Assembly: GCF_030814655.1 (NCBI RefSeq)
Contig: NZ_JAUSVK010000001.1
Location: forward strand, 4,905,001 to 4,969,000
Reading direction: 5' to 3'
Source: Labrys monachus
Lineage (GTDB): Bacteria; Pseudomonadota; Alphaproteobacteria; Rhizobiales; Labraceae
DNA length: 64,000 bases
Notes under the pieces: generated by a model
What the model saw: only the letters and a program-made list of their open reading frames with translations
What the model was told of the DNA's origin: nothing
Databases searched by the model: none
Shown: one piece after another, positions 48,709 to 63,001 of the stretch
How the letters are laid out: every line of letters starts with the position of its first letter
Position numbering within the stretch: the stretch's first letter is position 1
Program-made: the position numbers and the translations under genes

Positions 48709-49587
48709 TCACGCAGCGCCGAAGGCCTTTTTGCCCTCGCGGTCGAGCGCCGCGAAATCCTCGTCCGAAAGATCGATGTCGACGGCCGCGACGTTCTCCT
48801 CCAGATGCGCCACCTTCGACGTGCCGGGGATCGGCAGCATCACCGGACTGCGCTTCAGCACCCAGGCGAGCGCGATCTGGCTCGGCGAGGCGCCATGGGC
48901 CTTGGCGATCCGGTCGAGGATCGAACCGGGCCTGGCGAGGTCGCCGGCCGCAAGCGGGAACCAGGGGATGAAGCCGATGCCGTGCTGCCCGCAATAGTCG
49001 AGCACGTCCTCGCTGGTGCGGTCGATGAGATTGTAGCGGTTCTGGACCGTCGCCACCTTGAAGACTTTCGAGGCCGCCTCGATCTCCTCGATCGAGACCT
49101 CGCTCAGCCCGGCATGCCGGACGGTGCCGTCGTCGAGCAGCGACTTCACCGCGGCGAACTGCTCGTCGCGCGGCACCTTGGGATCGATGCGGTGCAGCTG
49201 CCAGAGGTCGATCTGCTCGACGCCGAGCTTCTCCAGGCTCTTCTTGGCCTGGCCGCGCAGATAATCCGGCCGCCCGTTCGGGGCCCAGATATCGGGGCCG
49301 GACCGCGTCAGCCCCGCCTTGGTCGCCACGACCACGTCGTCATAGGGATGCAGCGCCTCGCGGATGAGGCGCTCGGAGACGTCGGGCCCGTAGGAATCGG
49401 CGGTGTCGATGAAGTCGACGCCGATCTCCGGCAGGCGCTTCAGGGTGCGGATGGCCTCGTCATGGTCGGCCGGAGGCCCCCAGATGCCCCGCCCGGTGAT
49501 GCGCATCGCGCCGAAGCCGAGCCGATTGATTTCGATGTCCCCACCGATCTTGAAGGTTCCGGACTTGCCGGCATCGAGATTTGCCAT
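48709..49587 (-). CDS. Aldo/keto reductase
   Basis: A 292-residue NADPH-dependent oxidoreductase with the AKR tetrad: Asp in [11 protein letters not shown] (Tyr ~64), Lys in VVVATKAGL (~90) and His in [11 protein letters not shown] (~131). The start region [17 protein letters not shown] is that of the AKR family often found with oxidative stress or sugar pathways. It is transcribed leftward from ATG 49587 and stands alone. Substrate is not predictable beyond aldehydes and ketones. Confidence 0.88.
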
Positions 49588-49776: not shown

Positions 49777-50247
49777 TCAGCACAGCGCCAGGAGCGGCCC
49801 CCACGGAAAGGCCTCGCTCGCTTCCAGGCCGAAGGTGCCCAGGGGGCTCGACACGTTGACGACGCGTCCGACGGGGCTGCGGCGCAGCAGCGGCAGCATG
49901 GCCCGGGTGACCGCGGCGGCGCCGAAGCCGTCGACGACCGCCGCCTGGCGCAAGCCGCCCGCCGTCCCCGCATGGAACGAATGGTCCCCGGCATTGTTGA
50001 CGAGGATATCGAGGCAGGGCGAGGAGGCGGCGATCGTCTCGGCGGCCGCCAGGATGGTGTCCCCGTCGGCGAGGTCGAGCGGCAGGTATTCCGCCTCGTA
50101 GCCTTCCCAGACCAGTTCGGCCTTTGCGGCGAGGCCCCGCTCCTGCGAACGCTCGCCGATCCAGATCTTGTAACCCAATTGTCCCAAGGCCTTGGCGGTT
50201 GCCAGGCCGGCCCCTTTGTCAACGTCGATGATGAGTGCTGATTTCAT
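49777..50247 (-). pseudogene. Truncated SDR family protein lacking the catalytic Tyr-Lys
   Basis: The 156 residues start MKSALIIDVDKGAGLATAKA (degenerate nucleotide motif DVDKGAG instead of TGxxxGIG), contain NNAG (~88) and VVNVSSPLGTFGLEASEAFP (~133), then stop at LLALC. A functional SDR would continue with YxxxK and some 90 more residues; no continuation was found in any minus frame below 49777, where a GTCGATC-repeat fragment begins. Likely a gene remnant cut at its 3' end; the divergent TetR may once have controlled it. Confidence 0.65.
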
Positions 50248-50310
50248 TGCTATGCTCCCCATCCGAGCAGGACGGAACCGCCAGGACCATCAACTGCGCA
50301 GGCTTTACAA

Positions 50311-50959: not shown

Positions 50960-51754
50960 CTATGGCTGCTGCCCCCCGCCGATCGCCTGCGAAATGCCGC
51001 GCGCGGCCTCCCGCACCAGGGCGACGATCTCGTCGAGGGGCCGGTCGTCCTGCTTGACGATCACCGGTATGGTGACGGTGGCGATCGCCTGCCCGAAATG
51101 ATCGATGATCGGCACGCTGATATCGGTGACGCCCTGCGCCAGCCGGCTCGGCGCCATCTCGAAGCCGCGCGCGGCGATGCCGTCCAGCCGGGCGGCGATC
51201 TCCTCCTCCGAAGCGCCGTCCGAGTCGTTGGCGTGCAGCCTGGCCACCAGCTCCGCGCGCCTGTCGGAACGCTGGAAGGCGCAGACCACGCGCGCCGATG
51301 CATAGGCGGGCGACAGCGGGAAGCTCGCGCCGACCCGCACCGACCAGCCGGCGAGCTGATGTTCCGGCTGGCTCTGCGCCATGACGATGAAGCGATCCCC
51401 GTGTAGGGTGGCGAGATGGCAGGGATGTTCGATCGCATTGGCGAGGCGGTCCATCTCGCCCTGCGCCGCCTGCAGCAGGAGACGTGACGGCGGATGCCGG
51501 TGGGCGAGCTCGAACAGCCTCAGCGTCAGCCGGTACTGCCCGCTCGGCGCATCGCGGGTGACGTAGCCGCGCTGCTCCAGCACGCCGAGCATGCGGAAGA
51601 TCTCGCCGACCGAGCGGCCGATGCGGTCGGCGATGGCCTTCTGCGTCAGGCCGGCCGGCTCCTCCGCCAGCGCTTCGATCAGATCCAACCCCTTTTCGAG
51701 GGCTGGCGCACTGGGCCCCGGCGTTCCGCTCGATCGTTCATTGACAGCCATCAT
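50960..51754 (-). CDS. IclR family transcriptional regulator
   Basis: A 264-residue regulator with an N-terminal winged HTH (ALEKGLDLIEALAEEPAGLTQ, then AIADRIGRSVGEIFRMLGVLEQRGYV, ~20-70) and the IclR effector domain (HPCHLATLHGDRFIVMAQ, SPAYASARVVCAF, RGFEMAPSRLAQGVTDISVPI). It is divergent from the CaiB gene at 51847 across 92 AT-rich bases, so it is the probable regulator of the CoA-transferase/ABC locus. The start is taken at 51754 (MMAVNERSSG), with the adjacent ATG 51751 as alternative. Effector unknown. Confidence 0.9.
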   Translation of the reverse strand: MMAVNERSSGTPGPSAPALEKGLDLIEALAEEPAGLTQKAIADRIGRSVGEIFRMLGVLEQRGYVTRDAPSGQYRLTLRLFELAHRHPPSRLLLQAAQGEMDRLANAIEHPCHLATLHGDRFIVMAQSQPEHQLAGWSVRVGASFPLSPAYASARVVCAFQRSDRRAELVARLHANDSDGASEEEIAARLDGIAARGFEMAPSRLAQGVTDISVPIIDHFGQAIATVTIPVIVKQDDRPLDEIVALVREAARGISQAIGGGQQP

Positions 51755-51846
51755 GATTTCACCCATAAAATTAAAACAACAAATATGCAATCCAAGTCGA
51801 CGACGCCTCCGGGCATGCGGCCGATGGCAAGGGTGGAAGGCTCAGA

Positions 51847-53052
51847 GTGGAAGACCAGGTCATCGCAAACAAGGACGGGCTTCTCGCAGGTCTCGTCGTC
51901 GTCGACATGAGCCAGTTCCTGTCGGGGCCCTATGCGTCGCTGCGGCTGAACGATCTCGGCGCCCGCGTCATCAAGATCGAGCGTCCCGACGGCGGCGACC
52001 TGTGCCGGCGGCTCTATCTGTCGGACACCGACATCGACGGCGATTCGACGCTCTTCCACGCCATCAACCGCAACAAGGAAAGCCTGGCGCTCGACCTCAA
52101 GAACCCCGGGGACATCGAGGCGCTCAAGACATTGATCGCCCGAGCCGACGTCCTCATCCAGAATTTCCGTCCGGGCGTGATCGAACGCCTCGGCCTCTCC
52201 TACGAGGAGGCCTCGAAGATCAACCCCCGCCTCGTCTATGCGAGCATCACCGGCTACGGCAATGACGGCCCCTGGGTGAAACGTCCCGGCCAGGACCTGC
52301 TGGCCCAGGCGCGGTCCGGCCTGATGTGGCTCAACGGCGACGAAGGCCAGGGGCCGGTGCCCTTCGGCCTGGCCGTCGGCGACATGCTGGCGGGCGCCGC
52401 CGTCGCGCAGGGCATCCTCGCCGCGCTCGTCAGGCGCAGCATCAGCGGCCGGGGCAGCCATGTCGAGACAAGCCTCCTCGAAGCGCTCGTCGACGTGCAG
52501 TTCGAGGTGCTCACCACCTATCTCAACGACGGCAACCGGCTGCCGAAACGCTCCGCCGTCAACAGCGCCCATGCCTATCTGGCGGCGCCCTACGGCGTCT
52601 ACCGCACGCAGAGCGGCTATCTGGCCGTGGCGATGACGCCGATCGGCAAGCTCGCCGACGTGCTGGGCCTGCGCGCCCTCGACGCCTATCGCGACCACCC
52701 CAAGAGCTGGTTCACCCATCGCGACGAGATCAAGAGCGTCCTGGCCGACTTCCTCGCCGGCGCCACGACCGAGCACTGGCTGTCGCTGCTCGATCCCGCC
52801 GACATCTGGTGCGCCTCGGTGCTGCAATGGCCGGAGCTGCTCGCCAATGACGGCTTCCGGACGCTCGACATGCTGCAGACGGTGAAGCGCGGCGACGGCG
52901 TCGCGGTCGCGACGACCCGCTCGCCCATCCGCGTCGACGGCCATCGGCCCCCCGTTTCACGGGCGGCTCCCCGCCTCGGCGAGCATTCGGCGGCGATCCG
53001 CCGCGAATTCGCGCTGTCCGAACCGGCGGGAGAGGACGCGATCGCCCCCTGA
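51847..53052 (+). CDS. CaiB/BaiF family CoA-transferase
   Basis: A 401-residue class III CoA-transferase. The N-terminus LLAGLVVVDMSQFLSGPYAS, LNDLGARVIKIERPDGGDL, FHAINRNKESLALDLKNPGD and the catalytic-aspartate region PFGLAVGDMLAGAAVAQGI (~175-193) follow the family. These enzymes move CoA from an acyl-CoA to a carboxylic acid through an aspartyl mixed anhydride. The apparent start is GTG 51847, preceded by GGAAGG. As the first gene of the rightward locus it would activate the imported compound or an intermediate, in line with the MaoC hydratase downstream. Confidence 0.88.
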   Translation: MEDQVIANKDGLLAGLVVVDMSQFLSGPYASLRLNDLGARVIKIERPDGGDLCRRLYLSDTDIDGDSTLFHAINRNKESLALDLKNPGDIEALKTLIARADVLIQNFRPGVIERLGLSYEEASKINPRLVYASITGYGNDGPWVKRPGQDLLAQARSGLMWLNGDEGQGPVPFGLAVGDMLAGAAVAQGILAALVRRSISGRGSHVETSLLEALVDVQFEVLTTYLNDGNRLPKRSAVNSAHAYLAAPYGVYRTQSGYLAVAMTPIGKLADVLGLRALDAYRDHPKSWFTHRDEIKSVLADFLAGATTEHWLSLLDPADIWCASVLQWPELLANDGFRTLDMLQTVKRGDGVAVATTRSPIRVDGHRPPVSRAAPRLGEHSAAIRREFALSEPAGEDAIAP

Positions 53053-53145
53053 AGCCGGCCCGGCGGCGCAGCCGCCGGCATGACGAAAACCACCCGCCCG
53101 ACAAGCATTCGAACAGCGGCGGCAATCTGAAAGGGAGGAAACCAT

Positions 53146-54348
53146 ATGAACAAGCCTGCACATCATCGACCCGCACCCGGCCTTCTCGCCGCCGGCTGCC
53201 TCATCGGCCTGTCGCTCGCCATGCCCGCCCGGGCGGCGAACGAGGACCTGCTCAAGCCGCTGCCGCCCGCCCTCCAGGAACTCTATACGGGTTCGACCGA
53301 CAATCTGAAGCCGTCCGCCTATGACGACTTCAAGCTGCCTCCCAAGCCCTGGAAGTGGTGCCACTCCGAATCCTACCAGGGCAATCCCTGGCGCGTGGCG
53401 GTGACCAAGGAACTGCAGCGGCTCGTCGACGGCTACAAGGCCAAGGGCCTCATCTCCAGCTTCGAAGTCTCCAATTCGAACAACGACGCCAGCCAGCAGA
53501 TCGCCCAGATCCGCGCCTTCATCGACAAGAAATGCACGATCATCACCTCGATCGCCGGCTCCTCGACGGGCCTGAACGACGCGATCGAGGCCGCCTACAA
53601 GGCGGGCATCCCCTTCGTGACGCAGACGGGATCGGTGACGAGCCCCTACGCCATCAATGTCGACCAGAACTATGTGCGCTGGGGCGCCGACATGGCGCAG
53701 GCCATCGTCGACGAGCTCGGCAACAAGGGCAACGTCCTCATGGTCGCCGGCATTCCCGGACAGCCGATCGACGCGCTGGAGCGCCAGGGCGCCAACAGCG
53801 TCTTCTCCAAGTCGGGCGTCAAGATCGTCCGCACCGTCAACGGCAACTGGACGGCCAACGTCACCAAATCCGTGGTCCTGCAGGCGCTCGCCACCTCGCC
53901 GCAGAAGATCGACGCCGTCTGGACCTCGGGCAGCGAGGTGCGCGTGATCGCCGAGGACTTCGCCCAGGCCCATCGGCCGCAGCCTCTGATCACCGGCTCG
54001 CTCACCGGCGACATGCTCGGCTACTGGAAGGAGCATCCCGACCTGCGCTTCTCCGGCACGGCGCTCGGGCCGTCCTGGATGGCCCAGACGCTGTTCCGCG
54101 TCGGCGTGCGCATCCTCGAGGGCCAGCAGCCGCGCGTCGGCACCATGATGACGCCCCTGCCCGTGGTCAAGCAGGCCGACCTCGGCAAATGGTACCGCTC
54201 CTGCATGACGCCGGCCTCGACGTCGATCTTCCCGATCGCGCCGAGCGACCCGATGCCCGATAGCCTGATGGACGCCTATTTCAGGAAGCCGGCGCCGGTC
54301 GAAGGCTACAGCTACGCCGACACGCCGGATCCCTGCGCGGCGCAATAG
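53146..54348 (+). CDS. ABC transporter substrate-binding protein (CUT2/RbsB-like fold)
   Basis: A 400-residue exported protein. Signal peptide: MNKPAHHRPAPGLLAAGCLIG then ..AMPARA, cleavage near residue 30. The mature part starts with a ~40-residue extension (NEDLLKPLPPALQELYTGST) before the periplasmic-binding fold (WCHSESYQGNPWRVAVTKEL, SNNDASQQIAQIRAFIDKKC, GSSTGLNDAIEAAYKAGIPFV). Such longer RbsB relatives bind unusual, non-ribose ligands. A strong site (GGGAGGAAACC) precedes ATG 53146. A hairpin follows the stop, then the ATPase genes. Confidence 0.87.
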   Translation: MNKPAHHRPAPGLLAAGCLIGLSLAMPARAANEDLLKPLPPALQELYTGSTDNLKPSAYDDFKLPPKPWKWCHSESYQGNPWRVAVTKELQRLVDGYKAKGLISSFEVSNSNNDASQQIAQIRAFIDKKCTIITSIAGSSTGLNDAIEAAYKAGIPFVTQTGSVTSPYAINVDQNYVRWGADMAQAIVDELGNKGNVLMVAGIPGQPIDALERQGANSVFSKSGVKIVRTVNGNWTANVTKSVVLQALATSPQKIDAVWTSGSEVRVIAEDFAQAHRPQPLITGSLTGDMLGYWKEHPDLRFSGTALGPSWMAQTLFRVGVRILEGQQPRVGTMMTPLPVVKQADLGKWYRSCMTPASTSIFPIAPSDPMPDSLMDAYFRKPAPVEGYSYADTPDPCAAQ

Positions 54349-54371
54349 GCCTGCAGCCGGCCTGGAAACCG

Positions 54372-54396
54372 CCCTCGCCGTCGCTCTCGGCGAGGG
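54372..54396 (+). promoter_or_regulatory. Hairpin after the binding-protein gene
   Basis: CCCTCGCCG (54372-54380) pairs perfectly with CGGCGAGGG (54388-54396) across a 7-base loop, 24 bases past the binding-protein stop. As in the importer at 31 kb it may stabilise the upstream transcript. Flanking GGGATGAC text resembles short dispersed repeats. Confidence 0.45.
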
Positions 54397-54503
54397 TGGA
54401 GGCAGAGGGAGGAGAACCCACGGATCCCCTTCCTTCGCTACGCTCGCCAGGGATGACAGCGGTTTCCCGCCGGTCCCCTCCATCCCTCCCCCGGAACGGA
54501 TCG

Positions 54504-55244
54504 ATGCTCGACGTCCAGGACCTGTCCAAGAACTATGGCGAGACCCGCGCGCTCGAAGGCGTGTCGATCGGTTTCGAGAAGGGCACCATCCACGCGGTCC
54601 TCGGCGAGAACGGCTCGGGAAAGAGCACGCTCGTCAAGCTTCTGTCCGGCATCGTGATGCCGAGCCGGGGCCGCATCCTCGTCGAGGGGCGGCCGCTCAC
54701 CGCCTTCACGCCCGCCGCCATGCAGGCGGCGGGCCTTGCGACCGTGTTCCAGGAAGTGCTGCTGGCGCCCGACCGGACGGTGACGGACAACATCCTCCTC
54801 GGCTGCGACGGCCTGCTCAAGCGCAACATTCCCCGCGGCCGGCGGCGCGACGTGGCAGCGGAGGCGCTGTCCCGCATCACCGCGACGCCGATCGACCTCG
54901 ATGCCGCCGCCGGCGACCTGCCGCTGGCGATCCGCCAGCTCATCGTCCTCGCCCGCGCGCTCGCCCGCAGGCCGCGCCTGCTCATCCTCGACGAGATCAC
55001 CGCCGCGCTCGATTTCGGCGACCGGGAGGCCGTGTTCCGCACCATGGAAAAATTCGCCGCCGACGGCGGCCTGATCCTGTTCATTTCCCATCGCATGGAC
55101 GAAGTCATGCGCCTGGCGGCCCGCATCAGCGTCCTCAGGAACGGCAGGCTGGTCGAAACGCTGGCGCGCCGGGACACGTCGCCAGACGCCCTGCTGCGCC
55201 TGATGGCGCCCGCCGCCGCAAAGGAGCTCGCCCATGCCGGCTGA
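54504..55244 (+). CDS. Sugar-type ABC ATPase, N-terminal half protein
   Basis: A 246-residue ATPase corresponding to the first nucleotide-binding domain of RbsA-like proteins, which are usually single ~500-residue chains. Walker A is intact (LGENGSGKSTLVKLL, ~35-49) and Walker B reads LLILDEITAALDF (~160). The signature region, where LSGGQ is expected, reads LPLAIRQLIVLARAL and is degenerate. It is paired with the C-terminal-half protein encoded next (11-base overlap). Start ATG 54504 (MLDVQDLSKNYG) is chosen because the 36 codons upstream match the repeat-like leader. Confidence 0.88.
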   Translation: MLDVQDLSKNYGETRALEGVSIGFEKGTIHAVLGENGSGKSTLVKLLSGIVMPSRGRILVEGRPLTAFTPAAMQAAGLATVFQEVLLAPDRTVTDNILLGCDGLLKRNIPRGRRRDVAAEALSRITATPIDLDAAAGDLPLAIRQLIVLARALARRPRLLILDEITAALDFGDREAVFRTMEKFAADGGLILFISHRMDEVMRLAARISVLRNGRLVETLARRDTSPDALLRLMAPAAAKELAHAG

Positions 55245-55995
55245 CGCATCGGCCGCGGCTGGCGGCCTCCTCCTCGAAGGCGTGGCGGTGCGCCCGGGCG
55301 CGGCGCGGCTCGACGACGGGCTCGTGCCGGGCGAGATCGTCGGCGTCGCCGGCCTCGACGGCCACGGCCAGGAAGAGTTCCTGGAAATCCTGGCCGGGCT
55401 CCGCCGTCCGGCCGCCGGGCGGGTGTTCGCCCTCCACGGCGACAGGCGGGAGGCCGTCGGCAGCTTCAAGCAGGCCGTCCGCCACGGCATCGCCTATCTC
55501 GCCCGCGACCGGCGCCTGCACGGCATCTTCCCGGCCCTCTCGATCCTCGACAATTTCTCGATGGTGTCGTGGCGCCGCGACACGCGGTTCGGCCTGATCG
55601 GGCGGGATATCCAGCGGGCACGCTACGAGACCTGGCGCGAGCGGCTGGAAATCGTCGCCCCCGATCCGCGCGCGCCGATCACCGCGCTTTCGGGCGGCAA
55701 CCAGCAGAAGGTGCTGCTGGCGCGCTGGCTGGCGCTGGGGCCGAGCATCCTCCTGCTCAACGATCCGACGCGCGGCGTCGACCAGCGCACGCGCGAGATC
55801 CTCTATGCGGTGTTCCGCGACCTCGCGCGCAGGCAGGGCCTGTCGCTCGTCATCCTCTCCACCGAGATCGAGGAGGTGCTGCGCCTGTGCGACCGCGTGC
55901 TCGTCTTCCGCGACGGCGAAGTCTCGGCCCGTCTTTCCGGCGTCCGGATGTCGAACGACAGCGTCATCGCCGCCATGTTCGGACAGGCCGCATGA
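55234..55995 (+). CDS. Sugar-type ABC ATPase, C-terminal half protein
   Basis: A 253-residue ATPase matching the second domain of RbsA. The Walker A position is degenerate (VAGLDGHGQEEFLEIL, no GKS/T), as is normal for this domain. The signature ITALSGGNQQKVLLARWL (~148-165) is intact and Walker B is SILLLNDPTRGVDQ (~172), with Asn-Asp in place of Asp-Glu. Heterodimerised with the 54504 product it would build one competent ATP site from the intact Walker A of one chain and the intact signature of the other. It overlaps the permease start by four bases. Confidence 0.88.
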   Translation: MPADASAAAGGLLLEGVAVRPGAARLDDGLVPGEIVGVAGLDGHGQEEFLEILAGLRRPAAGRVFALHGDRREAVGSFKQAVRHGIAYLARDRRLHGIFPALSILDNFSMVSWRRDTRFGLIGRDIQRARYETWRERLEIVAPDPRAPITALSGGNQQKVLLARWLALGPSILLLNDPTRGVDQRTREILYAVFRDLARRQGLSLVILSTEIEEVLRLCDRVLVFRDGEVSARLSGVRMSNDSVIAAMFGQAA

Positions 55996-56975
55996 GCATG
56001 CCATCCGCCCCCCTTTCGCGCCGGCTGTCGCATTTCGCCCGGGAGCGGCGCGAGACCGGCCTCGCCGTGCTACTGCTCGTCGTCCTGCTGGTGCTGAACT
56101 TCCTGCTCAATCCGGCCCGCTTCCTGCCGGCGAACTGGGGCAGCACCATCGGCCTCGCCGCGCCGCTCGTCGTCGGCGCCGTCGCGGCGATGCCGGCCAT
56201 CCTCGGCGGGCGCGGCGGCATCGACGTCTCGGTCGGCCCGGCCATGGGCTTCGTCAACGCCGTGATCGTGCAGGTGCTCATCCTCGATCTCGGCCTCGAA
56301 ACGCCGTGGCTCATCGTGCCCGCCGCGCTGCTGACCGGCATCGGCATCGGCATCTTCAACGGCCTGGTCGCCACCATGCTGCGCATCCAGCCGATCGTCG
56401 CCACGCTCGGCACCTATCTGCTGCTGTCCGGCCTGACGCTGACCCTGGTGCCCTCCCCCATCGGCAGCGTCCCCCCCTGGATCAAGGATCTCGCCGGCAC
56501 CTGGTCGATCCTGCCGATTCTCCTGGTCGCCGCGGCGTGGGTCGCCCTCAAGCGCCTGCCCTTCCACGATGCGCTGATGGCGGTCGGCAGCGACGACCGG
56601 GCGGCCTACACCGCCGGCGTGCCGGTGCTGCGCGTGCGGTTCCTGTCCTATGTGACCGGCGGCCTGTTCGCCGGCGTGGCGGGCCTCTCCCTCACCGCGC
56701 TGATCGGCTCGGCCGACCCCAATGTCGGCCCCAATTATACGCTGGTGACGATTTCCGCCGTCGCGCTCGGCGGCGTCAGCCTCGCCGGCGGGCGGGGCGG
56801 CTTCCTCGCGGCGGCGCTGGGTGCCGTCGACATCTTCCTGCTGCAGAACGCGCTGACCTTCTTCAACCTGTCGCCCTTCGTGCTTCAGGTCGCCTATGGG
56901 GTGATCCTCGTGCTCTCCGTCTCGCTGAACGCGCTGCCCGCCCTCCTCGCACGCGGCCGGGAGGCGCGGTCATGA
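55992..56975 (+). CDS. ABC transporter permease (CUT2 type) 1
   Basis: A 327-residue permease with about nine hydrophobic segments. Family features include GAVAAMPAILGGRGGIDVSVGP (~55-76), GLVATMLRIQPIVATLGTYL (~115-134) and ISAVALGGVSLAGGRGGFLAA (~255-275). CUT2 importers for pentoses and autoinducers normally use a permease homodimer; here two different permease genes imply a heterodimer. ATG 55992 overlaps the ATPase stop (ATGA) and its own end overlaps the next gene, so all four ABC membrane/ATPase genes are coupled. Confidence 0.9.
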   Translation: MSMPSAPLSRRLSHFARERRETGLAVLLLVVLLVLNFLLNPARFLPANWGSTIGLAAPLVVGAVAAMPAILGGRGGIDVSVGPAMGFVNAVIVQVLILDLGLETPWLIVPAALLTGIGIGIFNGLVATMLRIQPIVATLGTYLLLSGLTLTLVPSPIGSVPPWIKDLAGTWSILPILLVAAAWVALKRLPFHDALMAVGSDDRAAYTAGVPVLRVRFLSYVTGGLFAGVAGLSLTALIGSADPNVGPNYTLVTISAVALGGVSLAGGRGGFLAAALGAVDIFLLQNALTFFNLSPFVLQVAYGVILVLSVSLNALPALLARGREARS

Positions 56976-57931
56976 GCCGGACCCTCAAGGGCATGAGCCG
57001 GGCCCTCTCGGCCTTCGCCATCGCCATCGTGCTGCATCTCATCGGCACGGCGCTGATCGAGGGCTACGGCGCCGAATTCTCGGTGCGCTCGATGCTGGTG
57101 CTGGCGACGCTGCTCGGCGTCGCCTCGATCGGCCAGACGCTCGTCGTCCTGCTCGGCGGCATCGACCTCTCGATCCCCTTCGTCATCGGCTTCGCCAATG
57201 TCGTGGCGGCGCAACTCTATGGCGAGGGCATGCCGTTCCTCTTTGTCTCGCTCATCGTCGCCGTGCTGGCCCTGGCGATCGGCGCCCTCAACGGCACCTT
57301 GTCCTCCCGCCTCCAGGTCCACCCGCTCATCATCACCCTCGGCGTGGGCACGGCGGTGCAGGGCGCCGTGCTGCTGTGGACCGCCGGCTTCCCCACCGGC
57401 TCGGCGCCGGATGCCATCAATGAGTTCGTCTCGATCGGCGGCACGGCCGGCCCCCTGCCGGTACCCTGGGTGGTGCCGTCCTTCGTGATGCTCGCCGTCG
57501 TCATCGGCCTCGTCCTGCACCGCACGGCCTTCGGCCGGCGCCTCTACGCCGTCGGCAGCAATCCGGCCGCAGCCCCCTTCGCGCTGATCGACCCGCATTG
57601 GATCCGCACCGCCGCCTATGCGCTGAGCGCCCTGTTCGCAGCCCTCGCCGGCGTGCTCCTCCTCGGCTTCACCGGCTCGGCCTATGGCGATGTCGGCCAG
57701 CCCTATCTGTTCCAGACGATCGCGGCGGTGGTGATCGGCGGCACGACGCTGGTGGGCGGGCGCGGCGGCATCCTCGGTTCGCTCGCCGGCGCCCTCGTCC
57801 TCACCGAGATCAACACGCTGCTCATCGGGCTCGGTCTGACGCCGGCCCTGGTGCAGGCGGCGCTCGGCCTCGTCATCATCGCGCTGGTCTCGCTCTACGG
57901 ACGCGAGCCGCATGTCAGGACGACGATTTAG
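56972..57931 (+). CDS. ABC transporter permease (CUT2 type) 2
   Basis: A 319-residue permease related to but distinct from the preceding one: GQTLVVLLGGIDLSIPFVIGF (~54-74), GTLSSRLQVHPLIITLGVGT (~107-126), AVVIGGTTLVGGRGGILGSL (~262-281). It should form the transmembrane pair with the 55992 product. It is coupled by ATGA overlap. The gene ends before a 297-base gap containing a composite intergenic repeat, which separates the importer from the MaoC gene. Confidence 0.9.
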   Translation: MSRTLKGMSRALSAFAIAIVLHLIGTALIEGYGAEFSVRSMLVLATLLGVASIGQTLVVLLGGIDLSIPFVIGFANVVAAQLYGEGMPFLFVSLIVAVLALAIGALNGTLSSRLQVHPLIITLGVGTAVQGAVLLWTAGFPTGSAPDAINEFVSIGGTAGPLPVPWVVPSFVMLAVVIGLVLHRTAFGRRLYAVGSNPAAAPFALIDPHWIRTAAYALSALFAALAGVLLLGFTGSAYGDVGQPYLFQTIAAVVIGGTTLVGGRGGILGSLAGALVLTEINTLLIGLGLTPALVQAALGLVIIALVSLYGREPHVRTTI

Positions 57932-57981
57932 CATGCCACAGGGCGCGAGACCCTTCGGCGGCGCCGAGTTTGAAAGAAACG

Positions 57982-58131
57982 GCGCGATTTTCCTTCTCCC
58001 GAGCGGGAGAAGGTGGCGCGAAGCGCCGGATGAGGGCCTGAACTCCCACAATTCACGCGACTGTCGAGCCATCCGGTCGATGTTCAGTCCCTCTTCCCCC
58101 TGCCGGGACCTTCTCCCGACCCGGGAGAAGG
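57982..58131. repeat. Composite hairpin repeat, copy 2 (opposite orientation to copy 1)
   Basis: Starts GCGCGATTTTCCTTCTCCC, followed by GAGCGGGAGAAGGTGGCGCG and AAGCGCCGGATGAGGG, a middle that differs from copy 1, then CCCTCTTCCCCCTGCCGGGA and CCTTCTCCCGACCCGGGAGAAGG-type end (hairpin arms CCTTCTCCC/GGGAGAAGG). The ends are the reverse complement of those at 34917-35093. It fills most of the 297-base gap between permease and MaoC genes; no gene was seen there. Confidence 0.7.
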
Positions 58132-58228
58132 AAGCCCCTCTCCGTGTGTCGGTGGCCTATGGACGAGAGGTCCGCCCCCCGAGAACGCAAACTCACAACG
58201 ATCTGGAATCAGAGCTTAGGACCCAAGC

Positions 58229-58684
58229 ATGAGCGACGAACGCTATCTGGAAGACTACGAGATCGGCGAGGAACGCGTCAGCATCGGACGCACCATCACC
58301 GAGGCCGACATCGTCCTGCATGCCGGCCAGACCGGCGATTTCTACCCGCACCACATGGATGCCGAATGGTGCGCCACCCAGCCCTTCAAGCAGCGCATCG
58401 CCCATGGCACGCTGATCTTCAGCGTCGGCATCGGCATGGCCGCCAATGTCATCAATCCGCGCAGCATGTCCTACGGCTATGACCGGCTGCGCTTCATCAA
58501 GCCGACCTTCATCGGCGACACCATCCGCGTCACCACCACCATCGTCGACAAGCGCGACTTCAAGCGCCCGAGCCACGGCATCCTGGTCGAGAAGGTCGAC
58601 GTCACCAAGCAGACCGGCGAGCTCGTGCTCACCTGCGAGCATCTCCATCTCGTCGAGCGCCGTCCCGGCGTGGAGGACATCTGA
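58229..58684 (+). CDS. MaoC-like dehydratase (hotdog fold)
   Basis: A 151-residue (R)-specific enoyl-CoA hydratase-like protein: [20 protein letters not shown], the catalytic Asp/His segment [18 protein letters not shown] (~30-47), and [18 protein letters not shown] (~58-75). It would hydrate an unsaturated acyl-CoA or remove water from a hydroxyacyl-CoA, fitting the CaiB CoA-transferase at the start of the locus. Its stop TGA shares one base with the ATG of the next gene (58684). Exact substrate unknown. Confidence 0.88.
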
Positions 58685-59835
58685 TGCCGGGCCTGCGCCT
58701 GATTTCGTGGGGCCACCGCCGCGCCACCGATCCCCTGCTGGCGGCGAAGGAGACGTTCCGCGCCAAGCGCCCCGATATCGACATCGCCGTCGAGGTGCGT
58801 CCCTTGAGCGATTTCGAGCACCAGGGCATGGCGGGCGTCGCCCGCAGCTACGACCTCGTCATCTTCGACCATCCCTTCTGCGGCGACATCGCCGAAGGCG
58901 GCCTGTTCCTGCCGCTCGACGAGCACCTGCCGGCGCTGCTCGGCCCGAATGCCGATCCCCTCTATGTCGGGCCGAGCCTCGACACCTACCGGCTGCACGG
59001 CCATGTCTGGGGCGCGCCGATCGACGCCGCCACGCCCCATGCGCTGGTGCGCCGCGACCTGCTGCAGCCGCTCGGCGAGGAAGTCCCCCGCAGCTGGGAT
59101 GAGGCGCTGGCCCTCGGCGAAAGGCTGGCGCCGCGGGGACTGAAACTCGGCATCGGCATCGAGACCCCGCATGCGCTCGCCGTCATCGCCTCGCTGATGG
59201 CGAATGCCGGCCGCCCCTGGCACACTGACGTCGCGGCGCCCTTCCATATCGACCGCAACGCCTTCCTCACCGCCTATGGCCGGCTGCGGGCGCTGCTCGC
59301 CTTCTGCCCGCCCGAGACGCTCGGCTGGAACTCGATCGACGTGCATGAGGCGATGGTGGCGCGCGACGACGTCGCCTATTGTCCGATCGTCTACGGCTAC
59401 GCCACCTATGGCGAGGCCGACCAGCGCCGCCGGCTCGGCTTCGCCCCCTTCGCGGGGGCGAGCGCGCCCTTCGAGGCCGGCTCGATGATCGGCGGCACAG
59501 CGATGGGAATATCGAGCTTCTCGCGGGAGAAGGAGGCGGGGCTCGCCTTCGTCGCCCATATGCTGGAGGCCGACACGCAGGACCGCCTCATCCCGAATCA
59601 TCACGGCCAGCCCGCCTTCCTCTCCGCCTGGCAGCGCGCCGACAACGACGCGCGCTTCAACGGCTTCTATTCCGCCGCGCTGAGCTCGATGGAGACGGCC
59701 TGGGTGCGGCCGCGCCGGCCCGGCTATCCGGAGTTCCAGCGCGACGCCGGGCGCATCGTCGCCGAAGCGCTGCGGGCCGGCGCGGACGGGACGGCCGCCG
59801 CGGACGCCGTCATCGCCCTGGCGGCGAAGCTCTGA
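58684..59835 (+). CDS. Solute-binding-protein-like protein without signal peptide
   Basis: A 383-residue protein of the family 1 (MalE-like) binding-protein fold: LRLISWGHRRATDPLLAAKETF, SYDLVIFDHPFCGDIAEGGLF, VWGAPIDAATPHALVRRDLL, SMIGGTAMGISSFSREKEAGL. Unlike true binding proteins it starts directly in the fold ([12 protein letters not shown]) with no signal peptide or lipobox, so it should stay in the cytoplasm. It is tightly coupled to the MaoC gene (one-base overlap) and linked to a CaiB gene, a pairing I recall in other genomes. Possible roles are an intracellular ligand sensor or carrier, or an importer component with a mis-placed start; no better upstream start exists. Confidence 0.8.
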   Translation: MPGLRLISWGHRRATDPLLAAKETFRAKRPDIDIAVEVRPLSDFEHQGMAGVARSYDLVIFDHPFCGDIAEGGLFLPLDEHLPALLGPNADPLYVGPSLDTYRLHGHVWGAPIDAATPHALVRRDLLQPLGEEVPRSWDEALALGERLAPRGLKLGIGIETPHALAVIASLMANAGRPWHTDVAAPFHIDRNAFLTAYGRLRALLAFCPPETLGWNSIDVHEAMVARDDVAYCPIVYGYATYGEADQRRRLGFAPFAGASAPFEAGSMIGGTAMGISSFSREKEAGLAFVAHMLEADTQDRLIPNHHGQPAFLSAWQRADNDARFNGFYSAALSSMETAWVRPRRPGYPEFQRDAGRIVAEALRAGADGTAAADAVIALAAKL

Positions 59836-59859
59836 GAGACTGTCGGCAGACCGCCCCAT

Positions 59860-59884
59860 CCCCGGCGAGCGCGGCTCGCCGGGG
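59860..59884 (+). terminator. Strong hairpin between the binding-like gene and the hydrolase gene
   Basis: CCCCGGCGAG (59860-59869) and CTCGCCGGGG (59875-59884) form a perfect 10-base stem with a CGCGG loop, 25 bases past the preceding stop, followed by ATGACGG rather than a T run. It may attenuate transcription into the hydrolase gene or be a short dispersed palindromic repeat. Confidence 0.4.
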
Positions 59885-59935
59885 ATGACGGAGAGACGAC
59901 CATTGTTTGCACGCGTTCCGAGTCTCGGAGGCACC

Positions 59936-60775
59936 ATGCGGATCATCGATACCCATCTGCACCTGATCGACCTCGACCGGCTGCATTATCCCTGGCTCGA
60001 CGGCGAGCCGGCGCTCAAGCACAGCTTCACGCTGGCGCAGTACAAGGCGCAGGCGGAGCCGGCCGGCATCGAGGCGATGCTGCACATGGAAGTCGACGTC
60101 GCGGAGGCCGACCAGCAGAAGGAGACCGACTGGGTCACCTCGCTCGGCGACGGCGTCATCGGCGCCATCGCCTGCTGCCGCCCCGAGCACGAGACCTTCC
60201 CGGCCCAGATCGAAAGGCTGGCCGCCAACCCGAAGGTGCGCGGCCTCCGCCGCACCTTCCATTTCACGCCCGACGCCCTGCCCCAGCAGCCGGATTTCGC
60301 CGCCAACATCCGCCTGCTGGCACGTTACGGCCTCTCCTACGACCTGTGCTGCCTGCCGCGGCAATTGCCGATCATCACCCGCCTCGCCGCGCAGGCGCCC
60401 GACGTGCAGTTCGTGCTCGACCATTGCGGCGTGCCCAATGTGCGGGACCGCGAGCTCGACCCGTGGCGGGCCGACATCGAGGCCCTTTCGGCCCTGCCCA
60501 ACGTCGCCTGCAAGATCTCGGGCGTCATCGCCTATGGTCACAGGACCGAATGGACGGTCGACGACCTCAGGCCCTTCGTCGAGCACGCCATCGACTGCTT
60601 CGGCTGGAACCGCGTCGTCTGGGGCAGCGACTGGCCGGTATGCACGCTGACCGCCGACCTGGCGAAATGGGTGGCGGCGACGCATCAATTGCTCGAAGGC
60701 ACCAGCGAGGACGAGAAGATCGCGCTGCTCAGCCGCAACGCGACGCGGATCTACAGGCTGGCGGCGGAGGGATGA
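59936..60775 (+). CDS. Amidohydrolase-family TIM-barrel hydrolase (lactonase-like)
   Basis: A 279-residue COG3618-type metal-dependent hydrolase. The first metal motif is IIDTHLHLIDLDRLHYPWL (~3-21, HxH); VQFVLDHCGVPNVRD (~160) and VVWGSDWPVCTLT (~230, catalytic Asp) follow. Relatives hydrolyse sugar lactones (fuconolactone, rhamnonolactone) or decarboxylate/hydrolyse 2-pyrone dicarboxylates. The start ATG 59936 has CGGAGG upstream; the frame could extend to 59885 but without homology. It is the last gene of the CaiB-ABC-MaoC locus; in-frame sugar-lactone hydrolysis would suit an imported sugar derivative. Confidence 0.87.
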   Translation: MRIIDTHLHLIDLDRLHYPWLDGEPALKHSFTLAQYKAQAEPAGIEAMLHMEVDVAEADQQKETDWVTSLGDGVIGAIACCRPEHETFPAQIERLAANPKVRGLRRTFHFTPDALPQQPDFAANIRLLARYGLSYDLCCLPRQLPIITRLAAQAPDVQFVLDHCGVPNVRDRELDPWRADIEALSALPNVACKISGVIAYGHRTEWTVDDLRPFVEHAIDCFGWNRVVWGSDWPVCTLTADLAKWVAATHQLLEGTSEDEKIALLSRNATRIYRLAAEG

Positions 60776-61347: not shown

Positions 61348-62166
61348 CTATTTCGCCACCGAGCAGTCATGGTCCAGCAGGTCCTCGCCATGGGCGAGAT
61401 CGCCGGCGAGGAGATCGACATGGCCGTCGAGCAGGACGAAGCCGGCCTTGTCGCCGCCGAACGTCATGCCGGCGACGACGAGGGTCTGGTCCGCCATGTC
61501 GGCGCCGGCTGCCGGCACGCCGGCCGCGAGGAGCCGGAAGGGGCTGTCGGCCGCGAGCGCCGCCTCGTCCAGCCGCCGGGCGAGATAGGCATGGCGGCCG
61601 AGCGGCACCGGCAGGCGCGACCAGTTCTCCCCGATCGCATCGGCATGACGCCGCAGCGTGTCGACGACGTCGGGCCGCAGGCAGTCGATATGGATGTGCA
61701 GCTGGTTCTGGCTGCGGGCGGAGGCCGCGTTGATCGCCAGGCCGATGTCCTCACGCGGCAGGGAACGGTGGAGCGCCGTCTCGACCCAGGACCGCGCGGC
61801 CCAGGCGGCGGCGAAATAATTCGGCGTGGCGGCCTCGAGCACGGCCGGGCTCTCGATGCCGGTGATCCGCGCCGTCGGGATCAGCAGGAACTGGCTGGCC
61901 CCGACGATATCCTTCAGCACGGCGTAGCCACCCTCGAGGCTGACGGCAACGCAGGGCGCGGGCCTGCCGTTCGCCTGCTGGTCCGGCACGCATTGCCCAT
62001 GGACGATCTTCCACAGGGCGTCCGGATCCGCGGCGAACGCCGGCTGGAGGAGAGCCAGCACCGTTGCGGCCTGGACGACGAAGACCCGTCCGGCATTCAT
62101 CAAGCTGCGCAGCATCGCCCGTCCCATCGCCGTGCCGGTCGCTCGCCGGCCGAACGTGCGTATCAC
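61348..62166 (-). CDS. cdh: CDP-diacylglycerol diphosphatase
   Basis: A 272-residue exported or membrane-anchored protein. A hydrophobic N-terminal stretch (GRVFVVQAATVLALLQPAFA) is followed by DALWKIVHGQCVPDQQ, QFLLIPTARITGIESPAVL (~90), SLPREDIGLAINAASARSQNQ and the histidine-triad-like LHIHIDCLRPDV (~155). These are hallmarks of Cdh, which hydrolyses CDP-diacylglycerol to phosphatidate and CMP. The frame opens at GTG 62166 with AGGGAAAG just upstream; ATG 62127, 62115 or 62100 are possible shorter starts that still keep the signal. A hairpin immediately follows the stop. Confidence 0.85.
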   Translation of the reverse strand: MIRTFGRRATGTAMGRAMLRSLMNAGRVFVVQAATVLALLQPAFAADPDALWKIVHGQCVPDQQANGRPAPCVAVSLEGGYAVLKDIVGASQFLLIPTARITGIESPAVLEAATPNYFAAAWAARSWVETALHRSLPREDIGLAINAASARSQNQLHIHIDCLRPDVVDTLRRHADAIGENWSRLPVPLGRHAYLARRLDEAALAADSPFRLLAAGVPAAGADMADQTLVVAGMTFGGDKAGFVLLDGHVDLLAGDLAHGEDLLDHDCSVAK

Positions 62167-62234: not shown

Positions 62235-62774
62235 TCAGAGTCCGGGGTCGGCCGAGGCGCCGTCCGCGGCCTGCTGCGCCGCCGCGGCGGCATGGCCGGC
62301 CAGGGCATCGCGCAATTTCTGCTCCTGCGCCTGGTCGAACGACGTCCGCATCACCGTGCCGCCGACGCCTTCGAGATCGGCCAGGACCTTGTCGGTCGTC
62401 ATCTTGCGGATGAGCAGGAACAGGCCGGCATTGCCGGGCGACAGCGCCTGCGCCGCCTCCTTCATGAAGGTGTCGTCGATGCCGATATCGGTGAAGCTGC
62501 CGCCGATGGCACCCGACGCGGCGCCGAGCGCGGTGCCGACCAGCGGCGCCAGGAAGATCATGCCGACCAGCGTGCCCCAGATCGCCCCGGACAAGGCGCC
62601 TGCCGCCGTCATGTTGACCATCTGGTTGAGCTTCACCCGCCCCTTGTCGTCCTTGACCGCGATGACCGCATCGGCGAGCTCGATGAGATATTCCTTCTGC
62701 AGCGCGAGAATCCGGTCGCGGACCTCCTCCGCCTTCTGCTCGGTGGGAAAGGCGATAAAGACAAGATCGCTCAT
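62235..62774 (-). CDS. DUF1269 domain membrane-associated protein
   Basis: A 179-residue protein: MSDLVFIAFPTEQKAEEVRD, ADAVIAVKDDKGRVKLNQMV, a glycine/alanine hydrophobic hairpin (AGALSGAIWGTLVGMIFLAP..ALGAASGAIGG, ~57-90), and LSPGNAGLFLLIRKMTTDKV. This matches DUF1269, membrane-inserted proteins of unknown function common in alphaproteobacteria and often stress linked. Start ATG 62774 follows AGGAG at seven bases. It is upstream of cdh on the same strand, with 68 bases between. Confidence 0.87.
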   Translation of the reverse strand: MSDLVFIAFPTEQKAEEVRDRILALQKEYLIELADAVIAVKDDKGRVKLNQMVNMTAAGALSGAIWGTLVGMIFLAPLVGTALGAASGAIGGSFTDIGIDDTFMKEAAQALSPGNAGLFLLIRKMTTDKVLADLEGVGGTVMRTSFDQAQEQKLRDALAGHAAAAAQQAADGASADPGL

Positions 62775-63001
62775 GGGAGTGCTCCTGGGTGGGAAGGCGT
62801 CTGGCGCAACGGACGAGGCCGTGTCATCCATGCCACGCCAAGAATGCTATCATATGTCGGGGGAAGATCGGCCCGTTTCCGGAGGGGCAATAAGCCGCCG
62901 CTGCCGTGCTGAGGAGCGGACCTCGCTCTCCGCCGGGATCTGGCATCAGCGGGTTGCGGCTTCGCAAAAGGCATCACGTCCCCCTCCGGCGGACACCACC
63001 T

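Follow-up and report, generated by a model that had tools for sequence, protein, structure and literature searches.

The 64,000-nucleotide stretch of the Labrys monachus genome analyzed here (contig NZ_JAUSVK010000001.1, positions 4,905,001 to 4,969,000; hereafter the window) contains, from 51847 to 60775, a run of genes that are all on the + strand, with an IclR-family regulator gene diverging from them on the - strand at 50960-51790. In order, the + strand genes encode a CaiB-type class III coenzyme A (CoA) transferase, an RbsB-like binding protein, two ATPase halves, two CUT2 permeases, a MaoC-type hydratase, a leaderless binding-type protein at 58684-59835 that we call cSBP, and an amidohydrolase-2 protein. 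Open reading frames (ORFs) were read from the window and gene families were assigned by Pfam and NCBIfam model matches; all the genes, with their coordinates, their strand, and the divergent regulator, lie where the original prediction for this DNA had placed them. That prediction suggested that they may form a single import-and-CoA catabolic system. An association of CoA genes with importers does recur elsewhere, but the importer is swapped while CaiB, a hydratase, and the cSBP remain associated. The stable unit is cSBP, CaiB, and a hydratase (MaoC or crotonase) rather than importer plus CoA genes, and the leaderless protein, present as predicted, is not one item among others but the common element of the loci.

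The neighborhood analysis that had been proposed for the proteins starting at 58684 and 53146 was carried out by reading 78 cSBP loci and 13 places with the RbsB-like protein. The 78 loci are the window, one Polaromonas genome, four annotated plasmids (Ensifer, Shinella, Ponticoccus, and Streptomyces), and 72 genome stretches, of which the window's own genome supplied two; the loci are not independent, two genera contributing six genomes each. Neighbors took their names from BLAST matches to a hand-made library, so that families outside it are missed. The same gene set recurs in other families, so its presence in the window is not due to chance.

Genes of the locus and their junctions

The IclR ORF (PF01614 and PF09339) opens at a TTG at 51790, with ATG candidates at 51754 and 51751, and lies about 92-95 bp from the CaiB gene (51847-53052). 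CaiB matches PF02515 over its full length (341 bits, positions 1-366 of 366) and has an aspartate, Asp150, in what we take to be the catalytic position of class III CoA-transferases. Against the L-carnitine CoA-transferase model NF002914 it scores 105.3 bits, below the cut-off of 413 for an orthologue of the carnitine CaiB. After a gap of 93 bp comes the RbsB-like CUT2 binding protein (53146-54348; PF13407, 131 bits), whose N-terminus is leader-like when judged by eye; the N-terminal extension predicted for it is real, and recurs ahead of the first strand in 12 aligned orthologues.

The first ATPase ORF (54396-55244; ABC_tran; likely start ATG 54504; Walker A GENGSGKS) corresponds to the first half of RbsA-type models (AraG positions 6-240 of 504) and the next (55234-55995; ABC_tran; degenerate Walker A, LSGGN signature) to the second half (281-494). 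They are followed by permease 1 (55992-56975, from ATG 55992; PF02653, 77 bits) and permease 2 (56972-57931, from ATG 56972; PF02653, 111 bits). The importer thus has the binding protein (leader by eye) and the two PF02653 permeases of a CUT2 system, and two half-size ORFs in place of the single double-length ATPase. A frameshift artefact was considered as the source of the half-size ORFs and rejected, since the split is found at 10 of the 78 cSBP loci, including the window, and in three more places elsewhere. With the assigned start codons the two ATPase ORFs overlap by 11 bases, the second ATPase and permease 1 by 4, and the two permeases by 4. A 297-bp gap then separates permease 2 from MaoC and contains a repetitive extragenic palindromic (REP)-like repeat (58005-58036, + strand), of which the genome has 55 copies with up to 3 mismatches (a reversed control pattern has 0).

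The MaoC gene (58229-58684; PF01575, 77.6 bits; PDB 4ffu, E 1.5e-53) overlaps the cSBP gene by 1 base. Its product has an intact GDxxPxH (GDFYPHH), presumably the catalytic dyad motif of MaoC hydratases, as do all 30 proteins of its kind (type 0). The last gene, an amidohydrolase-2 (59885-60775, start ATG 59885 or 59936; COG3618-like; PF04909, 181 bits), is a lactonase candidate and agrees with the lactonase-like hydrolase originally predicted; it scores 124.5 bits, below the cut-off of 400, against the L-fucono-1,5-lactonase model NF052480. Promoter and terminator scans and a search for repeats inside the genes gave nothing useful at the locus. Beyond the regulator, the - strand carries a 161-residue SDR match (49780-50262; positions 1-144 of 195), which may be truncated, beside an aldo/keto reductase (48712-49587). 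Downstream, also on the - strand, are genes for a CDP-diacylglycerol pyrophosphatase (61348-62166) and a DUF1269 protein (62238-62831) that by family are unrelated to the locus.

The cSBP (58684-59835; PF01547, 41 bits) has a maltose-binding-type fold according to its AlphaFold2 model (mean predicted local distance difference test score 95.2), which aligns over its whole length with CUT1 sugar-binding proteins (Z 39 to both 5iai, 19% identity, and SmoF, 16%). Fifteen columns are invariant among 55 sequences, including W9, R13, D57, D62, D114, W316, and R342, and look like the pattern that a conserved ligand site would give. The start lies only 8 residues ahead of the first-strand motif, which by eye (no predictor was used) leaves no room for a leader, in agreement with the original prediction of a binding-protein-like protein without signal peptide. 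At all 71 motif-matching loci (77 examined) the nearest start of the relatives is likewise 4-18 residues ahead of that motif. The protein is thus predicted to be cytosolic, a location from which a protein with such a fold cannot supply an importer. Nor does it have constant companion permeases: within 10 kb of the cSBP, CUT1 transporters are found at 39 of the 78 loci, CUT2 at 35, TRAP at 8, and MFS at 2. With no leader and no constant importer, a role as an ABC component was rejected. A fusion of cSBP to CaiB was also set aside: open frames of up to 829 residues are stop-to-stop frames in GC-rich DNA, and no fusion was demonstrated.

The cSBP family is sharply bounded, since a 17-sequence profile gave zero matches between 1e-50 and its cut-off of 1e-30. 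Genomes with a match number 3 of 5 in the family, 48 of 347 in the order, 6 of 385 in the class, and 13 of 299 in the phylum, counted in samples that partly coincide; a 55-row profile found 2 of 369 genomes in the class to which genome G622 belongs. In the large genome searches, that for the RbsB-like protein included, only the best five or six candidates per genome were scored. Relatives occur in 145 of 72,556 plasmid records (Sinorhizobium 90, Streptomyces 3), including megaplasmids of Ensifer and Sinorhizobium, for both of which genetic methods are routine, and the viral contigs searched contained no close relative. The window's own genome has two further cSBP loci (L027 and L029); the window cSBP shares 33% identity with the one in the genome's fucose-type locus. 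We also note that the Polaromonas cSBP (locus L009, 9944-11153) spans two frames, which may reflect a frameshift or a sequencing error.

The recurrent unit and its exchangeable importer

CaiB lies within 10 kb of the cSBP at 67 of the 78 loci, within 400 bp at 46, and within 10 kb on the same strand at 64; at four further loci outside the 67 (L029, L090, L115, and L119) it is 9.9-11.6 kb away. A hydratase is found within 10 kb at 66 loci by the following distribution: MaoC only at 38, crotonase (ECH_1, with a Pfam check in six loci) only at 27, both at 1, and neither at 12. The two kinds of gene go together, in that 64 of the 67 CaiB-linked loci, the window among them, also have a hydratase. 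On the CaiB tree (63 labeled rows) MaoC and crotonase have switched at least 3 times, and such repeated switching points to one common CoA-ester hydratase reaction. An IclR gene is within 10 kb at 53 loci. In all, it is very probable that the cSBP, CaiB, and hydratase work together as one unit in the catabolism of sugars or sugar acids.

All 72 cSBP-linked CaiB proteins (up to two per locus), that of the window included, fall inside a single starred 75-row clade; the tree is a quick one and carries long-branch warnings. Eight of the cSBP genomes supplied 26 other CaiB proteins, all those with a returned locus, of which 23 fall outside the clade and 3 inside. The Asp150 column holds aspartate in 72 of the 72 linked and 24 of the 26 other proteins. 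Since the linked proteins form one clade and most of the others lie outside it, one particular CaiB lineage, judged by sequence, accompanies the cSBP, with exceptions.

Those exceptions, together with one statistic, weigh against so close a tie. Two CaiB genes of the window's own genome (L003 and L005) are in the clade, yet no cSBP was found near them, and seven loci have a cSBP and no linked CaiB. In genomes G726, G757, and G202 all the CaiB proteins found were typed and none is in the clade, and the single CaiB frame typed in each of G880 (where two typed loci gave one frame) and G110 is not in it either; among the exception genomes, typing covered 5 of 8 CaiB proteins in G036 and 4 of 14 in G270. 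The distant CaiB proteins of L090 and L115 do type to the clade. As the cSBP also occurs without a clade CaiB, its role may extend beyond CoA transfer. Finally, the correlation of CaiB and cSBP distances (0.77, 67 pairs) is set aside as evidence, because IclR does equally well: over 49 loci the correlations with the cSBP are 0.854 for IclR and 0.85 for CaiB.

These points bear on the view that the CoA genes and the cSBP merely travel together under the IclR regulator, with no joint function, the cSBP being a ligand buffer or a binding-protein gene that has lost its former leader. The seven loci without linked CaiB are what co-location would give; the single CaiB clade, the invariant cSBP columns, and recurrence across families and in another phylum (a Streptomyces plasmid) are not, and we consider it highly improbable.

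Several loci have unusual arrangements of these genes. At L138 (10486-12749) and L139 (10481-12675) a tandem CaiB pair follows the cSBP and is itself followed by a crotonase gene. L122 (7263-18127) has two CaiB-crotonase pairs on either side of its cSBP (54% identical to the window's), preceded by a CUT2 set; the binding protein and permeases of that set share 35-48% identity with the window's. In L162 (S. meliloti 1021 pSymB, 731300-732456) the cSBP-adjoining CaiB gives two distinct ORF matches, perhaps because the gene is broken or the record contains a sequence error.

The importer shows a looser attachment. RbsB-like orthologues (at least 54% identity) with the importer set occur in 13 places among 347 genomes of the order, the window included, and the set adjoins a CaiB-cSBP unit in 10 of them; in the other 3 it stands apart, in genomes that carry the unit elsewhere. 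In one lineage (L027, L118, L123, and L124) crotonase and SDR genes lie between the CUT1 permease and ATPase genes. The predicted link between sugar importers and CaiB/hydratase genes is thus genuine and recurrent, and uptake and CoA genes belong together; the importer, however, is an exchangeable part, because CUT1, other CUT2, TRAP, or MFS systems replace it while CaiB and cSBP stay. Independent occurrence of the CaiB and ABC genes, which the original prediction had named as evidence against itself, is accordingly found in part, in the small share of cSBP loci with the split-ATPase set and in the three CUT2 sets standing apart. The prediction's own version of the locus, in which importer and CoA enzymes form a dedicated system for a sugar that is acylated or carboxylated or carries an aryl group, draws on the 10 adjoining sets and on the overlaps of 4-11 bases among the ATPase and permease genes. 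It sits poorly with a CaiB-cSBP pair that remains when CUT1, TRAP, or MFS replaces the importer, and no esterase or aryl-degrading gene is among the labeled neighbors, named from a library that contained none of these families; such a system is decidedly improbable.

Metabolic setting and a possible CoA-cycled dehydration

Sugar dehydrogenase families (SDR, Gfo/Idh, or ADH) lie within 10 kb of the cSBP at 60 of the 78 loci and lactonases (amidohydrolase-2 or SMP-30) at 27. Counted by single family, RhaM (L-rhamnose-mutarotase-like) is found at 27, Gfo/Idh at 30, amidohydrolase-2 at 23, MR-type dehydratase at 30, and FAH at 10. Around the nearest relatives of the window CaiB deoxyhexose genes predominate, and the fucose-type neighbors (mutarotase, Gfo/Idh, lactonase, MR enolase, SDR, and FAH) look like a non-phosphorylative deoxyhexose route.

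Other loci differ. Polaromonas L009 reads IclR, TRAP, CaiB, MaoC, cSBP, DHDPS family, and within 10 kb the BLAST library matched no lactonase, dehydrogenase, or dehydratase; here the CoA unit is framed by a TRAP system that probably imports an acid and by a gene of an aldolase family. Lactonases are present at 0 of the 8 TRAP loci and at 24 of the 57 loci that have ABC permeases but lack TRAP (small numbers and related loci), as expected if the CoA unit takes an acid. In L125 one protein passes the KDPG aldolase cut-off (192 bits against 156) and another resembles 2-keto-3-deoxy-sugar kinases without reaching their cut-off (227 bits against 400); a dehydratase was not matched there within 10 kb. 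L030 has an alpha-ketoglutarate-semialdehyde-dehydrogenase-like protein that scores below its cut-off. IlvD/EDD dehydratases were looked for around 33 cSBP places from 18 genomes, and only 1 place has one within 20 kb (some contigs end sooner), though each of the genomes has some elsewhere; by BLAST they are within 10 kb at 3 of the 78 loci. A single substrate for all loci was rejected: the branches differ in their neighboring enzymes, some having KDPG-aldolase, SMP-30-, or alpha-ketoglutarate-semialdehyde-dehydrogenase-like proteins, so that no one sugar fits them all.

The CaiB and hydratase pair would follow sugar dehydrogenases and lactonases in a pathway, and some loci add 2-keto-3-deoxy-acid enzymes for the steps beyond the pair; this arrangement suggests dehydration of the sugar-derived acid as a CoA ester. 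At the window, the CUT2 importer would bring in a sugar or sugar lactone and the amidohydrolase would open the lactone to the sugar acid. CaiB would transfer CoA onto the acid, and MaoC (elsewhere crotonase) would strip the resulting ester of its 3-hydroxyl to yield a 2-keto-3-deoxy-acyl-CoA; CaiB would then hand the CoA to the next sugar acid, freeing the 2-keto-3-deoxy acid for standard cleavage elsewhere. The cSBP, cytosolic and no part of an importer, would bind the sugar acid or its CoA ester and present it to the CoA enzymes or set their specificity. A cycle of this kind would replace the metal-dependent sugar-acid dehydratases. We infer the reactions, the substrate class, and the role of the cSBP alike from gene families and their neighborhoods, and CoA-cycled sugar-acid dehydration by CaiB and a hydratase with the cSBP is the reading that we tentatively favor, at somewhat less than an even chance. 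The simplest ligand candidate is an ordinary sugar acid and not an acylated or aryl sugar, and the original suggestion of a compound that is sugar-like at uptake and an acyl-CoA later fits the loci.

Other observations count against CoA-cycled dehydration. Metal-type dehydratases for sugar acids (MR enolase, UxaA, or IlvD) occur within 10 kb at 32 of the 78 loci: at 21 of the 38 MaoC loci, 5 of the 27 with crotonase alone, and 6 of the 12 that have neither hydratase. Where such an enzyme is present the CoA route would be redundant unless it acts on another acid. The window has no matched dehydrogenase or 2-keto-3-deoxy-acid enzyme of its own. A second kind of MaoC (type 1) has the GDxxPxH motif in 0 of 25 proteins and lacks the catalytic histidine; 24 of the 25 lie within 2 kb of the cSBP (e.g., L010, 10273-10824). 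Many fucose-type loci have both kinds, which occur together in 17 loci in all and may form a mixed hydratase. None of the papers listed in a search of open-licence full texts treats aldonic acids of this sort as CoA esters.

A retained second dehydratase would be accounted for if the unit carried out CoA-dependent epimerization or beta-elimination, CaiB and the hydratase adding and removing water or a sugar substituent on the CoA ester of a sugar acid or uronate. Stereochemistry would be changed, or a glycosidic bond cut, and the product would feed a neighboring ordinary deoxysugar pathway. Fucose-type loci do have deoxysugar genes beside the unit, including in L010 an FAH protein that scores 427 bits, below the cut-off of 500, against the 2,4-didehydro-3-deoxy-L-rhamnonate hydrolase model. 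Such chemistry leaves L009 and L125 unexplained, in which the unit accompanies 2-keto-3-deoxy-acid enzymes and no dehydratase was matched, and we judge it clearly unlikely. FAH-type cleavage would also yield a small hydroxy acid, and the CoA unit could then come last in the pathway, with that acid (lactate, glycolate, glycerate, or the like) as its substrate and the cSBP as an unrelated cytosolic sensor. FAH is present at just 10 of the 78 loci, however, and CaiB adjoins the cSBP in most; glycerate has a 3-hydroxyl on which MaoC or crotonase could act, and lactate and glycolate have none. This placement is quite improbable.

The locus in the window is a mosaic. Its CaiB is 75% and its importer 67-78% identical to those of the fucose-type locus L083, and its IclR, MaoC, and cSBP are nearest, among 13 loci compared, to those of Polaromonas L009 (51, 72, and 61% identity, respectively; the cSBP value covers 209 residues). 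A further step, which we think rather unlikely, is that a sugar-binding protein fold, now cytosolic, serves as an active component of a complex of CoA-transferase and dehydratase that dehydrates sugar acids as CoA esters, either by presenting the substrate or by catalysis; exchange of the cSBP would then alter the substrate, as the combination of a fucose-type CaiB with a Polaromonas-type cSBP in the window would suggest. If true, these proposals would add a metal-free, CoA-based sugar-acid dehydration to the known oxidative sugar pathways, account for CaiB, MaoC, and "extracellular solute-binding protein" genes to which annotation assigns no role in rhizobia and their relatives, and give a case of the periplasmic binding-protein fold recruited inside the cell.

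Comparison with known systems

Nothing on this gene set was found in the accessible parts of the open-licence literature. The families are known, and the combination with a cytosolic binding-type protein is, as far as that literature goes, undescribed. The nearest precedent for the substrate is deoxyribonate utilization by Klebsiella michiganensis, for which a route with CoA-bound sugar-acid intermediates has been proposed (PMC6365646). There, as here, a sugar acid would be carried as a CoA ester; that route uses a CoA-synthetase, a beta-hydroxyacyl-CoA dehydrogenase, a thiolase, and a CoA-transferase for glyceryl-CoA, and the portions of the paper available to us mention neither a hydratase nor a cSBP, both of which are present here.

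The fucose-type cSBP loci invite comparison with the described non-phosphorylative L-fucose pathway, whose mutarotase, dehydrogenase, lactonase, dehydratase, SDR, and FAH-type enzymes all have counterparts beside them; "CoA" and "MaoC" have 0 occurrences in the main text of that paper (PMC11199699). A described L-fucose importer is of the CUT2 type, like that of the window, and its genes adjoin fucose catabolism genes. As described in the available part of the source, its ATPase HSERO_RS05250 is one subunit, 80% identical to A0B297, which is in turn 44-47% identical to RbsA and MglA (PMC11378808); in the window, by contrast, the ATPase is split and CaiB, MaoC, and cSBP are present.

With the CUT1 binding proteins (SmoF, TMBP, LpqY, and MalE3) the cSBP shares the whole fold, with a best Z of about 39 over about 370 residues; it differs in being leaderless, in having no fixed importer, and in its low identity to them (13-20%). 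MqnA and PheC are enzymes with a binding-protein fold and are a precedent for such a fold in catalysis. The closest parallel to the proposed chemistry is carnitine metabolism, in which a class III CoA-transferase (CaiB) and a hydratase (CaiD) run a CoA-cycled dehydration of a hydroxy acid. The CoA-transferase and hydratase pair is common to both systems, a crotonase being the only hydratase at 27 of the 78 loci; the present system differs in the MaoC of the window, its sugar-acid setting, the additional cSBP, and a CaiB that scores 105 against the 413 bits of the carnitine cut-off.

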